Shown here: positions 54,735-63,366 of the stretch, in pieces
Numbering within the stretch: position 1 is the first letter of the stretch
How the letters are laid out: every line of letters begins with the position of its first letter
Assembly (NCBI RefSeq): GCF_029338515.1
Contig: NZ_CP119988.1
Coordinates: 310,001-374,000, forward strand
Length of the DNA stretch: 64,000 bases
Direction of reading: 5' to 3'
From: Haloglomus litoreum
GTDB taxonomy: Archaea > Halobacteriota > Halobacteria > Halobacteriales > Haloarculaceae
Translations under genes and position numbers: made by a program
Notes under the pieces: generated by a model
The model's database searches: none
Told to the model about the DNA's origin: nothing
What the model saw: the letters and a program-made list of their open reading frames with translations, nothing else

Positions 54735-56255
54735 TCAGTCGTCTTCGGTGATGATGTCGGCCGAGAGCCCCTGCGCCATCCGGATCTCCTTCGAGTTGTT
54801 CAGCGTCCACGCGGTGCGGTCGGTGACGGCCTCGATGATCTCACGGGCACTCGGATAGCCGTTGCCCGACTTCTTCACGCCGCCGAACGGGAGCTGGACC
54901 TCGGCGCCGATGCACGGCAGGTTGCCGTACGCCAGCCCCAGTTCGGCGTGGTCGCGGTAGTAGTTGATCTGGCGGTAGTCCTCGGAGACGATTGCCCCCG
55001 CGAGGCCGTAGTCCGTGTCGTTCTGGATCTCGACGGCGCGCTCGATGTCGCCGTCGTACTCCAGCAGCGCGACGTGGGGGCCGAACACCTCCTCCTGCGT
55101 GCAGCGGAGGTCGGCGTCGGGGTCGGCCTCGTAGACGAACGGGCCGACCCAGTGGCCGTCCTCGTGGCCGTCCGGGATCTCGTCGGCGTCGAGCTCGGTC
55201 CGGTCGACCAGCACGTTCACGCCCTCCTCGCGGGCGAGTTCGTTGTACCGGGTGACCTTCTCGTGGTGCTCGGCCTCGATGAGCGGGCCCATGAACGTGT
55301 CCTCCTCCAGCGGGTCGCCGACGGCCACGTCGCTCGCGATGTCGACGAAGCGCTCCTTGAACTCGTCGTACACGTCGGTGTGGACGATGAGGCGCTCACT
55401 GGACACGCAACGCTGGCCGGTCGTCTTGAACGAACTCATCACGGCGGAGTGGACGGCGATATCCAGGTCCGCCTCCTCGGTGATGACGACGGCGTTCTTC
55501 CCGCCCATCTCGCAGGCGGCGCGCTTGCCCGAGTCCGAGCCGACGGCGTCGGCGATACGGTGGCCGACCTCCGCGCTCCCGGTGAACAGGACCGTGGCCA
55601 CGTCGTCGGACTGGACGATGGCGTTGCCGGCGTCGCCGAAGCCCTGGACCATGTTGAACACGCCGTCCGGAATGCCGGCGTCCTCGAACATCTCCGCGAC
55701 GATCTGGGCACACCACGGCGTCTGCTCGGCGGGCTTCCAGACGACGGTGTTGCCCTCGACGAGCGCGACGGCCATGTGCCAGTACGGGATGGCGATGGGG
55801 AAGTTCCAGGGCGTGATGCAGCCGGTGACGCCGCGGGACTTGCGCCGCATGTAGGCGTCCTTCTCGGCGATCTCGGAGGGGATGATGTCGCCGCTGGGGT
55901 GGCGCGCGTCGCCCGCGGCCCACTCGACCATGTGCGCGGCCTCGACCACGTCGGCGCGGCCCTCGGAGATCTCCTTGCCACACTCCTTCGTGACGATCTC
56001 GCCGAGTTCGTCCGTGCGGTCACGCAGTTCGTGGTAGACGTCCCAGAGGTACTCCGCGCGGTCGATGCGCGAGAGCTCGCGCCACTCCTCGTAGGCCTCG
56101 TCGGCGGCCGCGACGGCCGTCTCGATGTCGGCGGGTGTGCCGCGGTGGAAGGTCCCCAGCGTCTCGCCCGTCGCGGGGTTCTCGCTCTCGAAGGTCTCGG
56201 TGTCCGCGCCGGCGGTCCACTCGCCGTCGATGTAGTGTCGGTACGGTTCTGCCAT
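54735..56255 (-). CDS. 1-pyrroline-5-carboxylate dehydrogenase (ALDH family)
   Basis: The 506-residue aldehyde dehydrogenase has Cys283 in TGQRCVSS, Glu249 in CEMGGKN, TPWNFPIAIP at about 148-157 and the NAD loop VLFTGSAEVG at about 222-231. ALDH family members act on many aldehydes. The proline dehydrogenase gene 1.0 kb away and the shared palindrome in the promoters favour oxidation of glutamate semialdehyde (from proline) to glutamate. A GCTTTGG element on the minus strand (56280-56286) lies about 28 nt upstream of the ATG, with the shared operator-like sequence directly behind it. Confidence 0.88.
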   Translation of the reverse strand: MAEPYRHYIDGEWTAGADTETFESENPATGETLGTFHRGTPADIETAVAAADEAYEEWRELSRIDRAEYLWDVYHELRDRTDELGEIVTKECGKEISEGRADVVEAAHMVEWAAGDARHPSGDIIPSEIAEKDAYMRRKSRGVTGCITPWNFPIAIPYWHMAVALVEGNTVVWKPAEQTPWCAQIVAEMFEDAGIPDGVFNMVQGFGDAGNAIVQSDDVATVLFTGSAEVGHRIADAVGSDSGKRAACEMGGKNAVVITEEADLDIAVHSAVMSSFKTTGQRCVSSERLIVHTDVYDEFKERFVDIASDVAVGDPLEEDTFMGPLIEAEHHEKVTRYNELAREEGVNVLVDRTELDADEIPDGHEDGHWVGPFVYEADPDADLRCTQEEVFGPHVALLEYDGDIERAVEIQNDTDYGLAGAIVSEDYRQINYYRDHAELGLAYGNLPCIGAEVQLPFGGVKKSGNGYPSAREIIEAVTDRTAWTLNNSKEIRMAQGLSADIITEDD

Positions 56256-56291
56256 TGCTCGTCGTACCGCCCCACCGGTCCAAAGCACCCA

Positions 56292-56307
56292 TCCGACCAT
56301 GGGCGGG
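56292..56307. promoter_or_regulatory. Put-box copy at the P5CDH promoter
   Basis: TCCGACCATGGGCGGG matches the palindrome CCCGACCATGGTCGGG in 14 of 16 positions. It begins five bases beyond the minus-strand TATA-like GCTTTGG of the P5C dehydrogenase gene, the place where haloarchaeal activators usually bind. Confidence 0.6.
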
Positions 56308-56357
56308 CCGGCCATACCCGGCGAACGCCGCCGGTTCGTCGTCGGATGGAGTCACGA

Positions 56358-56373
56358 CCCGACCATGGTCGGG
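56358..56373. promoter_or_regulatory. Perfect put-box palindrome at the HTH_10 gene
   Basis: CCCGACCATGGTCGGG is a perfect 16-base palindrome 53-68 nt upstream of the HTH_10 start at 56426. It stands in the divergent region between that gene and the P5C dehydrogenase gene and fits autoregulation. Confidence 0.65.
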
Positions 56374-56425
56374 CGACGGTTCGTGAACCCGACACACAGA
56401 TGCTCGCCCGGAGCGATACACACTC

Positions 56426-57145
56426 ATGGCTGCTGTCGAACGGACCACGACGCGGTTGACCCTCGACCTCTGGCACCCGAACTGCTGGGCCATCGAGGCG
56501 ACCGGGGAGACCAGCGGTGGGGTACTGGCACACGCGATCTACAACTCACCCCGGACCGACGGCGACAGTCCGTCGTCGGTCCGGGGGTTGTTCACCGCCT
56601 TCGGGGAGACCGAGGCGGAGGTCGAACGGTTGCTGGACGCTATCAGCGAGTCGGAGTACGCCGGCGACCTCTCCGAGCTGCAGGAGCGGTTCGGGCGCGA
56701 GCGGAGCGCCCCCGGCAACGTCGTCCGGGAGTTCTTCCTCGAGTACGACCCCGCGGACATGGTCTGCCCGACGCTGCTGGAGTACGGGTTCGTCCACAGC
56801 GCGCCGGTCCGCATCGAGGACGGGCGCGAGCAGTGGCAGGTCTGCTTCGTCGACGAGCGCTCGCAGATCGAGGACGCCCTGGACCGGGTCCGCGAGCAGG
56901 CGGGTGCCGAGGTCGAGGTCGACTCCATCACGACCGGCGAGACCGGCGGCCTCACCCCCCGCGACCAGCGCCTCGACACGCTCACCGTCCAGCAGCGCGA
57001 GGTGTTCGAGCACGCCCGCCGCGAGGGCTACTACGAGTGGCCCCGGGCGACCTCGACCCGCGAGCTGGCCGCCGACTTCGACGTCTCGAAGACGACGCTG
57101 CTCGAACACCTGCGGAAGGCCGAGGCCAAACTGCTGGACCCGTAG
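56426..57145 (+). CDS. HTH_10 (bacterio-opsin activator-type) regulator of the proline locus
   Basis: The 239-residue protein has a beta-rich N-terminal sensor (about residues 1-170, TTRLTLDLWHPNCWAIE at the start) and a C-terminal HTH_10 domain (about 185-236: LTVQQREVFEHARREGYYEW, STRELAADFDVSKTTLLEHL). It lies between the two proline-degradation genes, divergent from P5C dehydrogenase and convergent with proline dehydrogenase. A 16-base palindrome sits in front of it and in front of its neighbours. It most likely binds that palindrome. The N-terminal ligand is unknown and could be proline or P5C (inference). Confidence 0.88.
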   Translation: MAAVERTTTRLTLDLWHPNCWAIEATGETSGGVLAHAIYNSPRTDGDSPSSVRGLFTAFGETEAEVERLLDAISESEYAGDLSELQERFGRERSAPGNVVREFFLEYDPADMVCPTLLEYGFVHSAPVRIEDGREQWQVCFVDERSQIEDALDRVREQAGAEVEVDSITTGETGGLTPRDQRLDTLTVQQREVFEHARREGYYEWPRATSTRELAADFDVSKTTLLEHLRKAEAKLLDP

Positions 57146-57181
57146 CCGCTCTCCACTCGCAACGCTCCGCCGTATCCGTTC

Positions 57182-58009
57182 TCAGCGCCCGATGACCGCC
57201 CGGAGTGCGAACAGGGCGTTCCCCTTGCGCTCGCGGATGCGCCGGTAGAAGTAGGAGAACCACTTGCTCCCGTACGGCACGTACTGGTAGACGGGGTACT
57301 CCGCGGCGAGTTCGAACTGGGCCTCCTCGCGGACCCCGGTCAGCATCTGGATCTCGAACGGCGTCCCGTGCTCGGCGTGGAGCTCCTCGGCCAGCTCGAT
57401 CATCGCCGGGTCGTGGCTCCCGACGGCGACGCCGTCGTCGAACGCCTCGAACATGTAGGTGAGGTACTCCCGGTACACCTCGTCGACGCGGGCCTTCTTC
57501 CGGTAGGAGATGTCCCTGGGCTCCTCGTAGGCGCCCTTGACGAGGCGGACCTTCCCCGGCAGGTCCGCGAGGCGTTCGAGGTCCTCACGCGTGCGCCTGA
57601 GGTTCGCCTGCACGCAGACGCCGACGTTCCCGTCGGTCTCGCGGGCGTGGCGCTCGAAGGCGTCCAGCGTCACGTCCGTCGTCGTGTGGTCCTCCATGTC
57701 GATCCAGACGAAACAGTCGGCGGCGTCGACGATGCGCGCGAGGTTCTCCTCGAACGCGTGGTCGCCGACCTCCAGCCCGATCTGGCTCGGCTTCACCGAG
57801 ATACAGGCGTCCAGGTCCCGCTCGGCCAGCGACTCGACGAGGTCGATGTAGGCGTCGGCGTCGGCGTCGGCGTCGGCCCGGTCCTCGTAGTGCTCGCCGA
57901 GCAGGTTGAGGATGGCGCCGACGTTCCGCCGGTTCAGGTCGGCGGCGTGGTCCATCGCGTCGGCCGCCGTCTCGCCCGCCACGAAGTTGCTGGCGATGGG
58001 GGGAATCAT
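57182..58009 (-). CDS. Proline dehydrogenase (PutA-type monofunctional)
   Basis: The 275-residue TIM-barrel flavoprotein oxidises proline to 1-pyrroline-5-carboxylate and passes electrons to the quinone pool. Family segments are ISVKPSQIGLEV, DMEDHTTTDVTLD, VQANLRRTREDL, VRLVKGAYEEPRD, VGSHDPAMIEL and the late YVPYGSKWFSYFYRRIRERK, which carries the Arg pair that binds the proline carboxylate. The ATG at 58009 is supported by the minus-strand box ACTTATAC (58035-58042). It is divergent from the ABC operon. The intergenic region carries the shared palindrome. Confidence 0.9.
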   Translation of the reverse strand: MIPPIASNFVAGETAADAMDHAADLNRRNVGAILNLLGEHYEDRADADADADAYIDLVESLAERDLDACISVKPSQIGLEVGDHAFEENLARIVDAADCFVWIDMEDHTTTDVTLDAFERHARETDGNVGVCVQANLRRTREDLERLADLPGKVRLVKGAYEEPRDISYRKKARVDEVYREYLTYMFEAFDDGVAVGSHDPAMIELAEELHAEHGTPFEIQMLTGVREEAQFELAAEYPVYQYVPYGSKWFSYFYRRIRERKGNALFALRAVIGR

Positions 58010-58034
58010 ACACACACCCGCGTACCGGACCGAC

Positions 58035-58053
58035 GTATAAGTACGCCCGACCA
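58035..58053 (-). promoter_or_regulatory. Proline dehydrogenase promoter with half put-box
   Basis: ACTTATAC (58035-58042) lies 26-33 nt upstream of the start on the minus strand. A half-site CCCGACCA (plus strand, 58046-58053) lies directly upstream of it, with no second half. Confidence 0.5.
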
Positions 58054-58123
58054 AATATTCCTGACACGTTCATGGCGCACGGAAGAACCCGGAGCCGTGA
58101 CTGGCCGGGTGAACGTCGTCGTC

Positions 58124-58139
58124 CCCGACCATGGTAGGG
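58124..58139. promoter_or_regulatory. Put-box palindrome upstream of the ABC transporter operon
   Basis: CCCGACCATGGTAGGG differs from the perfect palindrome by one base (A for C at position 13). It lies 44-59 nt upstream of the start of the substrate-binding protein. The TATA box there is either GTTACC (58155-58160) or CTATAG (58165-58170). Confidence 0.6.
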
Positions 58140-58182
58140 CGCTAGTTGAGGCCCGTTACCTGCGCTATAGTCAGTAGACAGT

Positions 58183-59526
58183 ATGTCACGAGATACCATT
58201 CGGGAACTCGATAGGCGGACGCTGCTGACCCTCGCCGGAACGGCCGGCATCGCCGGCATCGCCGGCTGCTCGACCACGGACAGTGACGGCGGCGACGGTG
58301 GCGACGGTGGCGACGGGGGAAGCGGCGGTGACGGCGGTGATGGCGGGAGCGGCGGTGACGGTGGTGACGGCGGCAGCGGTGGCGACGGTGGCGACGGCGG
58401 CAGCGGCACCACGTACACCATCGGGATGATCGATTCGCTGACCGGCTCGCTGTCGGCGTTCGGCGAGCGCAACCAGCGCGGGAAGGACCTCGCGCTGGCG
58501 GCGGTCAACGAGGTCGGCATCAACGGCGGCGGTCAGCTCGAGATCATCGTCGAGGACTCCGAGTCCGAGAACCAGGGCGGCGTCTCCGCGGCCCAGAAGC
58601 TCGTCAACCAGGACCAGGTCCCGTTCGTCATCGGGGCGGTCGGCTCCGGCGTGTCGCTGGCCATCTACGAGAGCGTCATCCAGGGGACCGACGTGGTCCA
58701 GTTGAGCCAGAACTCGACGGGGCTGGGCCTGACCGACTTCCCGGGCCTCCTCCGCATGTCCCCGACCGGTCGCACGCAGGCGACCGCGCTCGCGGACATC
58801 ATCGCCGACGACGGCTACGACCAGGTGGCGATGACCTACGTCAACAACAACTACGGGTCGAGCCTCGCCGAGGCCTTCGTCAACGCGTGGGACGGCGAGA
58901 TGGCGTACAACAACCCCCACGACCAGGACCAGCAGTCCTACTCCGGTGTCGTCTCCGAGATGAACGGCTCGGGCGCCGACGCGTGGCTGTTCATCACCTA
59001 CCAGGCGGAGTTCGCGACGATGGTCAACGAGATGTTCTCGAACGGCTACGAGCCCCAGCTGTACGGCGCCGACTCCGTCTCCGGCGACAACGTGCTGGAG
59101 AACACGCCCGAGGGGAGCATGGACGGGATGAAGATCGTCGTCCCCTCCGCGCCCGTCGAGGAGCAGAACTACCAGGACTTCGCCTCGGAGTTCGAGAGCG
59201 AGTACGGCGAGGCCCCGACCGCGTGGTCGGCGTACGCCTACGACTGCGTCGTCACGGCGGCGCTCTCGATCATGGCGGCCGACGAGTTCACCGGCGCGGC
59301 GCTGGGCGAGGTCGTCCGCGACGTGACCCGGCCGGAGGGCGAGCAGGTCACCTCCTTCGCGGCGGGCGCCGAGATCCTCGCGAACGGCGGCACCGCGAGC
59401 GACGTCGACTACCAGGGCGTCAGCGGTCCCATCGACCTCGACGAGAACGGTGACCCGGTCGGCTTCCTGCAAATCACGGAGGTCCAGAACCACGACTACG
59501 AGGGCATCGGCTTCATCGAAGGCTGA
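58183..59526 (+). CDS. ABC transporter substrate-binding lipoprotein, branched-chain amino acid type
   Basis: The 447-residue protein has a Tat lipoprotein signal: RR at residues 11-12, followed by LLTLAG and the lipobox ending at Cys29. Residues 36-75 are a Gly/Asp/Ser linker made of four near-identical nine-residue units, which anchors the domain off the membrane. The rest (about 76-447) is a periplasmic-binding fold of the Leu/Ile/Val type: TIGMIDSLTGSLSAFG, VIGAVGSGVSLA, FGERNQRGKDLALAAVNEV. It is the first gene of the operon. The substrate is not known; the put-box and neighbours suggest proline or a related amino acid (inference). Confidence 0.9.
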   Translation: MSRDTIRELDRRTLLTLAGTAGIAGIAGCSTTDSDGGDGGDGGDGGSGGDGGDGGSGGDGGDGGSGGDGGDGGSGTTYTIGMIDSLTGSLSAFGERNQRGKDLALAAVNEVGINGGGQLEIIVEDSESENQGGVSAAQKLVNQDQVPFVIGAVGSGVSLAIYESVIQGTDVVQLSQNSTGLGLTDFPGLLRMSPTGRTQATALADIIADDGYDQVAMTYVNNNYGSSLAEAFVNAWDGEMAYNNPHDQDQQSYSGVVSEMNGSGADAWLFITYQAEFATMVNEMFSNGYEPQLYGADSVSGDNVLENTPEGSMDGMKIVVPSAPVEEQNYQDFASEFESEYGEAPTAWSAYAYDCVVTAALSIMAADEFTGAALGEVVRDVTRPEGEQVTSFAAGAEILANGGTASDVDYQGVSGPIDLDENGDPVGFLQITEVQNHDYEGIGFIEG

Positions 59527-59531
59527 GACGG

Positions 59532-60482
59532 ATGGTGCTCGACCTCCTCGCGAACGGGCTGGTGTACAGTAGCATCCTCGTACTCGGGAGTATCGGGCTC
59601 TCGCTGGTGTACAGCATCGCGGACTTCGCCAACTTCGCCCACGGCGACACGATGACCGTCGGCGCCTACTCGGCGCTGGTCACGTTCGGTGCCGTCGGCG
59701 GGCTCGGCGGCGCGATACTCGGGCTCCCGCTCGGGTTCTTCATCGCGCTGGCGGTCGGCATCGCGATGGCGGCGCTCGTTGCCGTCGTCACGGAGAAGGT
59801 CGTCTACGAGGGGCTGGACGAGGTCGGTTCCATCGGTCTGCTCATCACCTCGATCGGCATCGCGTTCGTGTACAGAGCGGTCATCCAGATGGGGTTCGGC
59901 GCGGACTTCACGCGCTTCGACATCCAGGCGCTCCGCCCCATCGAGGCCCTGGTGCCGTACGGCATCCGCGTCACCGAGCACGACGTGGCCATCGTCGTCT
60001 CGGCCGCCGTCCTGGTGACGGGGCTGCACGTCCTGCTCCAGTACACGGACCTCGGGCGGAAGATGCGCGCGATGGCGGACAACCCCGACCTCGCGCGGGT
60101 CAGCGGCATCCGGACCGACCGGGTGAAGCTGTGGACCTGGGTCATCGGCGCCGGCCTCGCGGGCAGTGGCGGCGTCTTCCTCGGCCTGTTCAACCAGCTC
60201 CGCCCTCGGATGGGCTTCGACCTGCTGTTGCTCATCTTCGCCGCGGTCATCCTCGGCGGCATCGGCTCGGTGTACGGCGCGATGCTGGGCGGGTTCCTCA
60301 TCGGGATGATCAACGAGCTGACGCCCGCGCTCTCGGACCTGGGCTCGCTGCTCCCGCTCGTCCCCGACGCGTGGGGCATCCCCATCGGCATCGAGTACGC
60401 CGACGCCATCGCGTTCGTCATCATGGTCCTTGTCCTGCTGTTCCGGCCCAACGGCATCGCCGGAGACGAGGAGGGGACCTGA
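59532..60482 (+). CDS. ABC transporter permease, LivH type
   Basis: The 316-residue permease has about eight helices, the LivH N-terminus LANGLVYSSILVLGSIGLSLVY (landmark only) with YSIADFANFAHGD (about residues 30-42), and RMGFDLLLLIFAAVILGG followed by GSVYGAMLGGFLIGMI in the last third. It forms the membrane channel together with the LivM-type protein. It begins five bases after the substrate-binding gene and ends just ahead of the second permease. Confidence 0.92.
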   Translation: MVLDLLANGLVYSSILVLGSIGLSLVYSIADFANFAHGDTMTVGAYSALVTFGAVGGLGGAILGLPLGFFIALAVGIAMAALVAVVTEKVVYEGLDEVGSIGLLITSIGIAFVYRAVIQMGFGADFTRFDIQALRPIEALVPYGIRVTEHDVAIVVSAAVLVTGLHVLLQYTDLGRKMRAMADNPDLARVSGIRTDRVKLWTWVIGAGLAGSGGVFLGLFNQLRPRMGFDLLLLIFAAVILGGIGSVYGAMLGGFLIGMINELTPALSDLGSLLPLVPDAWGIPIGIEYADAIAFVIMVLVLLFRPNGIAGDEEGT

Positions 60483-60483
60483 G

Positions 60484-61662
60484 ATGTCCGTCCTCTCCGA
60501 CCCGCAGGGGTACTGGGCGGACCTCACGCGGGCCGAACAGGGCGTCACGGCGTTCGTCCTGCTGTTCGCCACGCTCCTGCTGCTCGGCCTGCTCACCGGC
60601 GGCCTCGGGCCGTCGTACTTCCTGTTCCTCGTCGGCCTCGCCGGGATGTACTCGCTGCTCTCGTTCGGGCTGAACGTCCAGTGGGGCTACTCCGGGCTCA
60701 TCAACTTCAGCGTCGCCGCCTTCTTCGGTATCGGCGCGTACGGTACCGCACTCGCCAGCGCGAGCAGTTCGCCGCTTGCCGGCGGTATCCCGCCCATCGT
60801 CGGGCTGTTCGTCGCGCTCGTGCTCGCGGCGGTGCTGGCGCTGCTCATCGGCATCCCCACACTGCGCCTGCGGGCGGACTACCTCGCCATCGCCTCCATC
60901 GGCCTGGCCGAGGTCGTCCGCATCATCATCCTCAACGAGGAGGGCCTGACCAACGGGAGCGCCGGCGTCCGCGGCATCCCGAGCTTCTTCGAGGGCTGGC
61001 CCGTGCTGGAGACGTTCCCCGAGGCGATGCCGGGCGTCATCATCAGCTTCCTGCCCGGCCCGGACATCGTCCTCCAGACACCGTTCTGGCGGGCGCTGCT
61101 GAACGTCGCGCTCGTCCTGACGCTGGTCGGCATCTGCTATCTCGTCCTCCGGCGGGTCCACCGCTCGCCGTGGGGCCGGGTCCTGCGGACCATCCGCTCG
61201 GACGAGGACCTCGCCCGCGCGCTGGGGAAGAACACCTACTCGTACAAGATGCAGGCGTTCGTCCTCGGGAGCGTCATCATGGCGCTGGCGGGCGTGTTCT
61301 ACGCCCACCTGAACCTGTACGTCGGCCCCGGCGACCTCAACCCCATCACGACGTTCTACGTCTGGGTGGCGGTCATCCTCGGCGGGAGCGGCTCCAACCG
61401 GGGTGCGCTGTTCGGCGGCTTCGTCATCGTCGCCATCCAGCAGGGGACGCGCTTCCTCAACGAGCTCGCGTTCATCCCGGTCGACGTGGCACCGCTGCGA
61501 CTGCTGCTCATCGGTGTCATCATCGTCCTGCTGATGCGGTTCCGGCCGCAGGGCGTGCTCCCGCCACAGCGAGAACTCATCTGGTCCGGCGTCGTCGACG
61601 ACGCGCCGGAACGCCCCGAGAGCGGCGTCCGCGGTGCCAAGGCGGGTGAGAGCGATGACTGA
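60484..61662 (+). CDS. ABC transporter permease, LivM type
   Basis: The 392-residue permease has about nine helices. The family segments are SFGLNVQWGYSGLINFSVA (about residues 59-77), RADYLAIASIGLAEVVRIII and GVFYAHLNLYVGPGDLNPITTF. It ends in a hydrophilic tail that overlaps the next gene by eight bases. The ATG at 60484 lies after the stop of the first permease, and a longer in-frame start at 60430 has no family features. Confidence 0.92.
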   Translation: MSVLSDPQGYWADLTRAEQGVTAFVLLFATLLLLGLLTGGLGPSYFLFLVGLAGMYSLLSFGLNVQWGYSGLINFSVAAFFGIGAYGTALASASSSPLAGGIPPIVGLFVALVLAAVLALLIGIPTLRLRADYLAIASIGLAEVVRIIILNEEGLTNGSAGVRGIPSFFEGWPVLETFPEAMPGVIISFLPGPDIVLQTPFWRALLNVALVLTLVGICYLVLRRVHRSPWGRVLRTIRSDEDLARALGKNTYSYKMQAFVLGSVIMALAGVFYAHLNLYVGPGDLNPITTFYVWVAVILGGSGSNRGALFGGFVIVAIQQGTRFLNELAFIPVDVAPLRLLLIGVIIVLLMRFRPQGVLPPQRELIWSGVVDDAPERPESGVRGAKAGESDD

Positions 61663-62533
61663 AGCCGACGCGGAAGTCGATGACGACGCGGAGACGCAGT
61701 CGGCCGCCGCCTCGCAGACCGCGACCGGGAGCGACGCGGCCGGGCACGCCCGCTCGGGCGCGAACCTCTCGAAGGAGGACGTGGTCCTCGAGGCCCACGA
61801 CCTCGTCAAGGCGTTCGGCGCGCTCGTCGCGACCGACCACGCGAGCTTCCAGGTCGAGCGCGGGAGCATCACCGGCCTCATCGGACCGAACGGCGCCGGC
61901 AAGTCGACGCTGTTCAACCTCGTCTCGGGCTTCTACGAGCCCGATTCCGGTCACGTCGAGGTCAACGGCACGGACGTGACCGACCTCGAACCGTACGAGA
62001 TCGCCGACTACGGCCTCATCCGGACGTTCCAGACGCCCCGCAAGCTGGAGGGGATGACCGTCCGCGAGGCGATGATGGTCGGCCCGCAGCACCAGCCCGG
62101 GGAGTCGTTCGTGAAGCTGTTCACGTCGCCCGACGAGGTGCGCGAGCACGAGGAGCAGAACCTCTCGGACGTCGAGCGCATCCTCGGCGAGTTCGAGATC
62201 GACCACCTCGCCACCCAGCCCGCGACGAAGATCTCGGGCGGGCAGATGAAACTCGTGGAACTCGCCCGTGCGATGCTCGCCGAGCCGGACATCCTCCTGC
62301 TCGACGAGCCGGCCGCCGGCGTGAATCCGACGCTGCGGAACAAACTCGCCGAGCAGATACGGCGGCTCCACGACCAGGGGACGACGTTCCTCCTCATCGA
62401 GCACGACATGGAGTTCGTGATGAGCCTCGCCGACCCCGTCATCGTGCTCGACCGCGGGAGCGTCCTGATGGAGGGCACCCCCGAGGAGGTCCAGACCGAC
62501 GAACGAGTCATCGACGCGTACCTCGGAGGCTGA
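61655..62533 (+). CDS. ABC transporter ATP-binding protein, LivG type
   Basis: The 292-residue ATPase has an acidic 50-residue N-terminal tail, the Walker A GPNGAGKST, the LivG-type segment LIRTFQTPRKLEGMTV, the ABC signature KISGGQMKLVELARAM, the Walker B ILLLDEPAAG and the switch His in LIEHDMEF. It powers import together with the LivF-type protein. Its start overlaps the LivM-type stop, which points to translational coupling. Confidence 0.93.
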   Translation: MTEADAEVDDDAETQSAAASQTATGSDAAGHARSGANLSKEDVVLEAHDLVKAFGALVATDHASFQVERGSITGLIGPNGAGKSTLFNLVSGFYEPDSGHVEVNGTDVTDLEPYEIADYGLIRTFQTPRKLEGMTVREAMMVGPQHQPGESFVKLFTSPDEVREHEEQNLSDVERILGEFEIDHLATQPATKISGGQMKLVELARAMLAEPDILLLDEPAAGVNPTLRNKLAEQIRRLHDQGTTFLLIEHDMEFVMSLADPVIVLDRGSVLMEGTPEEVQTDERVIDAYLGG

Positions 62534-62535
62534 CA

Positions 62536-63366
62536 ATGAGCGAGAACCCATCCCCAGACACGGACGAGACCACAGCGGGCAGTGCCCGCGAGGACGACAC
62601 CGCTGCGGAAACCGACGCCGATGCCGGCGAGTTCGAGTTCCCGGGCGACGGGAGCACGGAGCCGGTCATCGAACTGGACGGCGTCGACAGCGGCTACGGC
62701 GAGGTCCAGGTGCTCGACGACTGCTCGCTCCACCTGAACCCCGAGGAGATCGTCTGTCTCATCGGGCCGAACGGGGCCGGCAAGTCCACGGTGCTCAAGA
62801 CCATCTTCGGCATGCTGACGCCGTGGACCGGGACCGTCACCTACCACGGCGACGACATCGGCGGGATGGCCCCCGAGGACATCGTTCGCGAGGGTATCGG
62901 CTACGTCCCGCAGACCGACAACGTGTTCGGCTCGCTCACCATCGACGAGAACCTCCGGATGGGCGGCGTCGCCCGGAAGGGCGGCCTCGAGGAGGTCATC
63001 GACCAGCTGTACGACCGGTTCCCGCTCCTCGACGACAAGCGCGACTCGAAGGCCCGGACCCTCTCGGGCGGCCAGCGCCAGGTGCTCGCGTTCGCCCGGG
63101 CGCTCGTGATGGAGCCCGACGTGCTCCTCATCGACGAGCCCTCGGCGGGGCTGGCGCCCAACACCGCACAGGAGGTGTTCGGCCACGTCGAGGCCGTCAA
63201 CGAGCTGGACACGGCCATCCTGATGGTCGAGCAGAACGCGAAGGAGGGGCTGGCCATCTCCGACCGTGGCTACGTCCTCGACCAGGGGACGGTCCGGTTC
63301 GAGGACCGCGCCGACCAGCTGCTCGACAACGACGAGGTCGGGCGGCTCTACCTCGGCGGGGCGTGA
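62536..63366 (+). CDS. ABC transporter ATP-binding protein, LivF type
   Basis: The 276-residue ATPase has an acidic N-terminal tail (about 45 residues), Walker A GPNGAGKST, the LivF segment GIGYVPQTDNVFGSLTIDENL, the signature LSGGQRQVLAFARAL, Walker B VLLIDEPSAGLAP and a Glu-Gln pair (VEQNA) at the switch, where LivG has His. It forms the nucleotide-binding dimer with the preceding protein. It lies three bases downstream of that gene. Confidence 0.93.
   Translation: MSENPSPDTDETTAGSAREDDTAAETDADAGEFEFPGDGSTEPVIELDGVDSGYGEVQVLDDCSLHLNPEEIVCLIGPNGAGKSTVLKTIFGMLTPWTGTVTYHGDDIGGMAPEDIVREGIGYVPQTDNVFGSLTIDENLRMGGVARKGGLEEVIDQLYDRFPLLDDKRDSKARTLSGGQRQVLAFARALVMEPDVLLIDEPSAGLAPNTAQEVFGHVEAVNELDTAILMVEQNAKEGLAISDRGYVLDQGTVRFEDRADQLLDNDEVGRLYLGGA

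Follow-up and report, generated by a model that had tools for sequence, protein, structure and literature searches.

We describe a 16-bp palindrome, CCCGACCATGGTCGGG, that recurs at the promoters of a proline utilisation (put) locus of Haloglomus litoreum and is probably the operator (UAS) of the neighbouring HTH_10 protein, which would activate the put genes, a transporter operon and its own gene. The sequence comparisons point to an activator that acts locally. It is neither Bat nor NarO, and very likely a proline switch not described before that belongs to a known type of archaeal activator. The window is the whole stretch of DNA analysed, 64,000 nucleotides long, corresponding to positions 310001-374000 of a single-contig genome of 4.70 Mb.

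Palindrome copies and genes of the proline locus

The features of the locus are listed below in window coordinates.

54735-56255, minus strand: P5C dehydrogenase (P5CDH) candidate, aldehyde dehydrogenase family (PF00171, E 3.4e-141), with site 1 in its promoter
56282-56285, minus strand: TATA-like element of P5CDH, CTTT; +8 to +11 are 58-100% A/T over 38 non-redundant promoters
56292-56307: site 1, TCCGACCATGGGCGGG, 14/16 positions (2 mismatches), 37 nt 5' of the P5CDH ATG
56358-56373: site 2, CCCGACCATGGTCGGG, perfect 16-bp palindrome (0 mismatches), 52 nt from the HTH_10 ATG
56380-56383: TATA-like element of the HTH_10 gene, TTCG, at +8 to +11 past the core of site 2
56426-57145, plus strand: HTH_10 regulator (PF04967, E 7.8e-19; 67.7 bits against a cut-off of 23.1)
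57182-58009, minus strand: proline dehydrogenase (PRODH; PF01619, E 2.6e-29)
58036-58039, minus strand: TATA box of PRODH, TATA; TATA-like in 41 non-redundant promoters, 1.3-2.4 bits per column
58046-58061, minus strand: PRODH element, with proximal half-site CCCGACCA at 58046-58053 (TGGTCGGG on the PRODH strand) and an A/T-rich distal half
58124-58139: site 3, CCCGACCATGGTAGGG, 15/16 positions (1 mismatch), its end 44 nt before the SBP ATG
58146-58149, plus strand: TATA-like element of the ABC operon, TTGA; TTnA in 21 non-redundant promoters, 0.5-2.6 bits per column
58183-59526, plus strand: substrate-binding lipoprotein (SBP) of a HAAT-type amino acid ABC transporter, Peripla_BP_6 (PF13458, E 5.5e-40)
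59532-60482, plus strand: LivH-type permease (PF02653, E 6.1e-43)
60484-61662, plus strand: LivM-type permease (PF02653, E 2.1e-45)
61655-62533, plus strand: LivG-type ATPase (PF00005 and PF12399 BCA_ABC_TP_C)
62536-63366, plus strand: LivF-type ATPase (PF00005, E 3e-33)

The two domains that define a put locus, PF01619 for PRODH and PF00171 for P5CDH, are both present, and the PRODH is the single match in the genome. The P5CDH candidate reached the cut-off of no NCBIfam equivalog; because NCBIfam leaves the substrate unsettled, its assignment rests on the PRODH neighbourhood and on the annotation of H. volcanii, where the counterparts are described as a PRODH/P5CDH pair (PMC6801745). The SBP carries a long Gly/Asp-rich repeat linker (GGDGGDGG...), encoded at 58290-58410, after its lipobox.

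When the sequence was read again, the three palindromes and the half-site at 58046-58053 were recovered with the coordinates and scores of the preliminary description. Its remark that none occurs elsewhere in the window is nearly correct but does not hold literally, an extra copy with 2 mismatches being present at 60789-60804 within the livM coding region, where it is unrelated to the promoter sites. Searching the whole 4.70 Mb for CCCGACCATGGTCGGG with at most one mismatch returned sites 2 and 3 only. With at most two mismatches, 15 places were found, against 16 for the reversed control pattern: the 3 promoter sites described here, the 1 in livM and 11 outside the window, 10 of which lie in coding-like ORFs while the last sits 5 nt before a start codon and cannot act as an upstream element. 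With at most three mismatches, the window contains 4 copies, a count reached by 13 of 100 shuffles. Counts at two to three mismatches that do not exceed the controls could also be expected of a palindrome devoid of regulatory meaning, arising from chance, restriction-site avoidance or an RNA hairpin. The loose-mismatch counts are at control level; the signal lies in the near-perfect copies and in their placement. Three copies fall in the two intergenic spaces, which total 343 bp (Poisson p of about 2e-10, a rough hand calculation using a rate of 15 per 4.7 Mb). Copies with 0 or 1 mismatch are confined to the put locus and the other placements are nearly all coding, so that the palindrome is not random across the genome.

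Conservation and promoter geometry in haloarchaea

Eighty loci with close relatives of the HTH_10 protein were taken from named genomes. The arrangement P5CDH (reverse), HTH_10 (forward), PRODH (reverse), ABC operon (forward) recurs widely among them, and the P5CDH orthologue adjoins the HTH_10 gene in most. The palindrome is likewise kept at the orthologous put promoters, as a functional site should be according to the preliminary description: it occupies the same two intergenic spaces, at fixed distances, in the great majority of the 80 loci. Most loci have a counterpart of site 1 at 37 nt (mostly 36-39) from the start codon of P5CDH, a counterpart of site 2 is present in 57/77 orthologous HTH_10 promoters, and counterparts of site 3, ending about 31-46 nt from the SBP start, were found in 33 of the 34 SBP promoters examined. 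When the loci are aligned on the site, the 14 core columns have a mean of 1.5-1.7 bits each in every promoter class; the 20 nt on the upstream side have 0.2-0.4 bits, and the 30 nt on the downstream side, where the TATA-like block lies, have 0.3-0.5. On the evidence of these alignments, cross-species conservation settles that the palindrome is real, independently of the counts. Conservation at fixed spacing over many genera, together with the co-occurrence with HTH_10 genes described below, refutes the idea of a palindrome without regulatory meaning, to which we give almost no credence. An RNA structure in particular is unlikely because short or absent leaders are expected, the site lying upstream of the transcribed region.

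A TATA-like or A/T block is found at +8 to +11 past the 14-bp core in the P5CDH, PRODH, SBP and HTH_10 promoter classes alike; the HTH_10 class has the weakest block, limited to +8/+9. An inverted repeat directly upstream of a TATA-like block, the arrangement of an HTH_10 upstream semi-palindrome, is thus found at four promoter classes. The identical geometry, with the block 8-11 nt past the core, supports the earlier suggestion that one factor serves all four promoters.

The PRODH promoter departs from the others in the site itself. Its proximal arm TGGT[CA]GG is strictly kept, and the second arm of the palindrome is replaced by a conserved GAAAnnTT. Since the TATA-like block lies at the same distance, the element occupies the same place as the full palindromes. 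The half-site noted previously at 58046 is therefore present as described, but it belongs to a distinct, strictly conserved asymmetric element and is no decayed palindrome. A tract rich in T, TTnTTTT (0.7-1.4 bits per column), is a further feature of the PRODH promoters of the 41 non-redundant loci and lies another 24-30 nt upstream. Both this tract and the A/T-rich distal half are weak in the window itself (58054-58084).

The same geometry bears on the direction of control. The HTH_10 protein might bind the palindrome and mainly repress, or switch between modes, with proline relieving the repression. An autoregulatory divergent layout with a perfect site before the regulator gene (56358) is common among repressors, and the direction of control cannot be read from sequence. 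Against this, the site lies 8 nt upstream of the TATA-like element in every class and overlaps neither the TATA nor the start, which is the usual place of an archaeal activator; the core promoters of the window are weak (CTTT, TTGA, TTCG); and the best known relatives, Bat, NarO and DmsR, are described as activators, though NarO also represses dms. We consider repression rather unlikely, and favour activation.

Co-occurrence of the site with the HTH_10 gene

We searched 194 haloarchaeal genomes for PRODH, the HTH_10 protein and the motif, and sampled regions with and without the regulator beside PRODH. Altogether 112 PRODH loci were scored, a full site being defined as the 14-mer with up to 2 mismatches within 2.2 kb. 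The PRODH half-site was present in 70/70 loci with an HTH_10 gene of this group, compared with 0/42 without, and the full site in 66/70 HTH_10-linked loci compared with 2/42 unlinked ones. The two unlinked full sites (L136 and L144; 2 mismatches, outside the PRODH promoter) look like chance. Second PRODH copies that lack the element exist in genomes whose first copy is HTH_10-linked. Relatedness of the loci confounds this co-occurrence. In the PRODH tree, the linkage label switches at least 5 times and the half-site switches along each time; the independence of the co-occurrence is nevertheless limited because only one linkage contrast lies on well-supported branches. Isolated full sites in genomes without this HTH_10 group (L182, L183) were rejected as chance, one being inside a coding ORF and the other having unrelated genes as neighbours.

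The site also follows the regulator where proline enzymes are missing. At six loci (L166, L167, L170, L171, L172 and L175), the regulator is accompanied by an ABC operon with no intact PRODH in the fetched stretch, and the site precedes the transporter. At L166, L167, L172 and L175, the HTH_10 gene stands before a HAAT transporter that is plainly a different one (permeases about 36% identical), with the site in between; at these four, no proline enzymes are within reach of the regulator orthologue. That the HTH_10 protein is the factor, as first proposed, gains support both from the co-occurrence and from the site accompanying the regulator where it stands with a different transporter operon. 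It could be argued that the palindrome is bound by a different conserved transcription factor with its gene elsewhere and that the HTH_10 gene is just one of its targets, Lrp/AsnC proteins being also known to regulate haloarchaeal amino acid genes (PMC6801745). We hold this to be improbable, as the site goes with this HTH_10 group rather than with PRODH, P5CDH or the transporter, and the core is one symmetric base pair from a denitrification motif itself associated with HTH_10 proteins (CGACCATGGTCG vs CGAACATGTTCG).

More distant homologues of the HTH_10 protein were compared in the same way. Relatives with 42-50% identity that share the helix SKTTLLEHLRKAE, with small variants, carry CCTCCCATGGTCGG (L186-L195, L199, L206-L209); it precedes P5CDH or the relative's own gene and adjoins a TATA-like box, and these relatives are either operonic with PRODH or standalone (L206-L209). 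In a second HTH_10 group, with 42-46% identity, the regulator gene shares an operon with PRODH and mostly faces P5CDH (L186-L195, L197, L198, L214, L215). The association of HTH_10 proteins with proline genes seems to have arisen on more than one occasion. The L197, L198 and L214 operons have the HTH_10 gene and the PRODH half-site and lack the full site. No site was found near a Haloarcula homologue located away from the put genes (L091-L095, L184; 57-59% identical); the Haloarcula put locus has a separate copy, 52% identical, with the site (L185). Several homologues of 35-47% identity with related helices had no site, and most homologues of other groups were likewise without one. In Natrialbaceae (L033, L049-L051, L058, L060, L065), the recognition helix is changed, reading AKSTLLEHLRRAE where checked, and so is the centre of the site, which reads CCATGA. 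These paired variants are suggestive of co-evolution between helix and site, and count as one event because they belong to a single clade.

The HTH_10 protein, its proposed action and known systems

According to the AlphaFold2 model (built from 45 sequences, mean pLDDT 83.5) and Pfam, the regulator consists of a tandem ferredoxin-like (ACT-like) domain at about residues 8-171, a flexible linker and the HTH_10 domain at 186-237. HTH_10 was the only Pfam domain above its cut-off, no PAS or GAF domain being detected even at E up to 10. Among solved structures, none is close to the regulator in sequence. Using VIA-align, the best structural match of the N-terminal part was Ta1207 of Thermoplasma acidophilum (5m86; Z 11.2 over 141 residues, rmsd 3.3), which resembles it in the fold of the sensor domain and differs in sequence (11% identity); we infer no function from the match. 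ACT domains (2qmw, 2nyi, SerB2), RAM and the Lrp-type Rv3291c matched at Z 6-7.2, a level also reached by unrelated ferredoxin-like domains, and the HTH matched sigma region 4 and NarL-type HTH domains at Z 6-6.7. An amino acid pocket in the N-terminal domain of the model is plausible. The only cysteines, at positions 20, 114 and 140, form no CXC, and C20 and C114 alone are invariant among close orthologues.

We propose the following mechanism. Two HTH_10 subunits would bind the inverted repeat CC-nn-CCATGG-nn-GG directly upstream of BRE/TATA, and the bound protein would help TFB and TBP to assemble at weak core promoters. The N-terminal tandem domain is the likely sensor, of proline or of a breakdown product, and PRODH, P5CDH, the HAAT-type transporter and the regulator itself would be switched on together when proline is present. 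The PRODH promoter would use the asymmetric version with one intact arm, and site 2 before the HTH_10 gene predicts autoregulation. Direct binding, binding as a dimer, an activating rather than a repressing effect, autoregulation and the proline signal are all steps that we infer. Independent support comes from H. volcanii, in which the transcripts of HVO_1191 (PRODH) and HVO_1189 (P5CDH) are jointly higher on alanine than on ammonium, no regulator having been assigned (PMC6801745); the authors call the signal for this co-induction unclear, and the condition was alanine/ammonium and not proline (PMC6801745). The literature searched contains no account of a haloarchaeal proline regulator or a CCCGACCATGGTCGGG-type site. 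HVO_1190, which we presume to be the gene between HVO_1189 and HVO_1191, is not named in that literature.

Bacterial put regulators (Lrp-family PutR, AraC-type PutR and the PutA repressor) likewise control PRODH, P5CDH and uptake locally, but belong to unrelated protein families with unrelated DNA sites and act on bacterial promoters. Closer systems exist among HTH_10 proteins, contrary to the preliminary description, which knew of no comparable site: the Bat UAS and the denitrification semi-palindrome CGAAYATDKTYG are both close in form. Bat acts through a UAS common to bop, brp, bat and crtB1 in Halobacterium (PMC1502140, PMC1447603). Bat shares with the put regulator the HTH_10 domain and a semi-palindromic upstream element at a handful of co-regulated promoters, that of the activator's own locus among them, but differs in the core sequence, in having PAS and GAF domains, and in pathway and signal. 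The work of Baliga and DasSarma of 1999 and 2000 is reported to place this UAS at -52 to -39, with the core ACCcnactagTTnG, and the TATA box at -30 to -25; with these coordinates, its position relative to the TATA box would be that of the put sites.

The semi-palindrome CGAAYATDKTYG of Haloferax and other haloarchaea has been linked to NarO/bacterioopsin-activator-like proteins (PMC10062603, PMC11218638; Hattori 2016), and in H. mediterranei the nos and nor promoters are less active when the motif is mutated (PMC10062603, PMC11218638). It is a 12-bp inverted repeat whose degenerate consensus fits the inner 12 bp of the put site, CGACCATGGTCG, at 11/12, and it is common to the promoters of one pathway, with short HTH_10 proteins lacking PAS/GAF as proposed regulators. 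In contrast to the put site, position 4/9 is A/T and not C/G (CGACCATGGTCG vs CGAACATGTTCG, one symmetric base pair apart), the response is to anoxia and nitrogen oxides, and the motif lies 66-79 nt upstream of the ATG. We rejected the idea that this motif reaches the outer C/G positions of the put site, the flanks of 20 sampled CGAACATGTTCG copies being unbiased. NarO is reportedly defined, in Hattori's work of 2016, by an N-terminal CXnCXCX7C cysteine motif, and this motif is absent from the put regulator. Because Bat uses a UAS and the denitrification motif matches at 11/12, the put site is of a known kind.

Haloarchaeal genomes encode dozens of HTH_10 regulators, very few of them with a known target; we detected 46 HTH_10 domains in this genome, nearly all without known targets. 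One of these regulators now gains a candidate operator, a regulon of four promoters and a predicted signal, and the counterpart locus of H. volcanii, an organism with genetic tools, makes the prediction testable. The proline and denitrification cores form a clean pair for learning how HTH_10 proteins discriminate between sites. Tentatively, HTH_10 regulators may share an operator grammar, an inverted repeat 8 nt upstream of TATA whose central base pairs distinguish paralogues through readout by the recognition helix. The corresponding assignment of central pairs, CCATGG for the proline group, ACATGT for the denitrification group and ACTAGT for Bat, is equally speculative. If this grammar were true, the asymmetric PRODH element would be a graded-response variant, and one could predict from sequence which genes are controlled by the dozens of HTH_10 paralogues that each haloarchaeal genome encodes.
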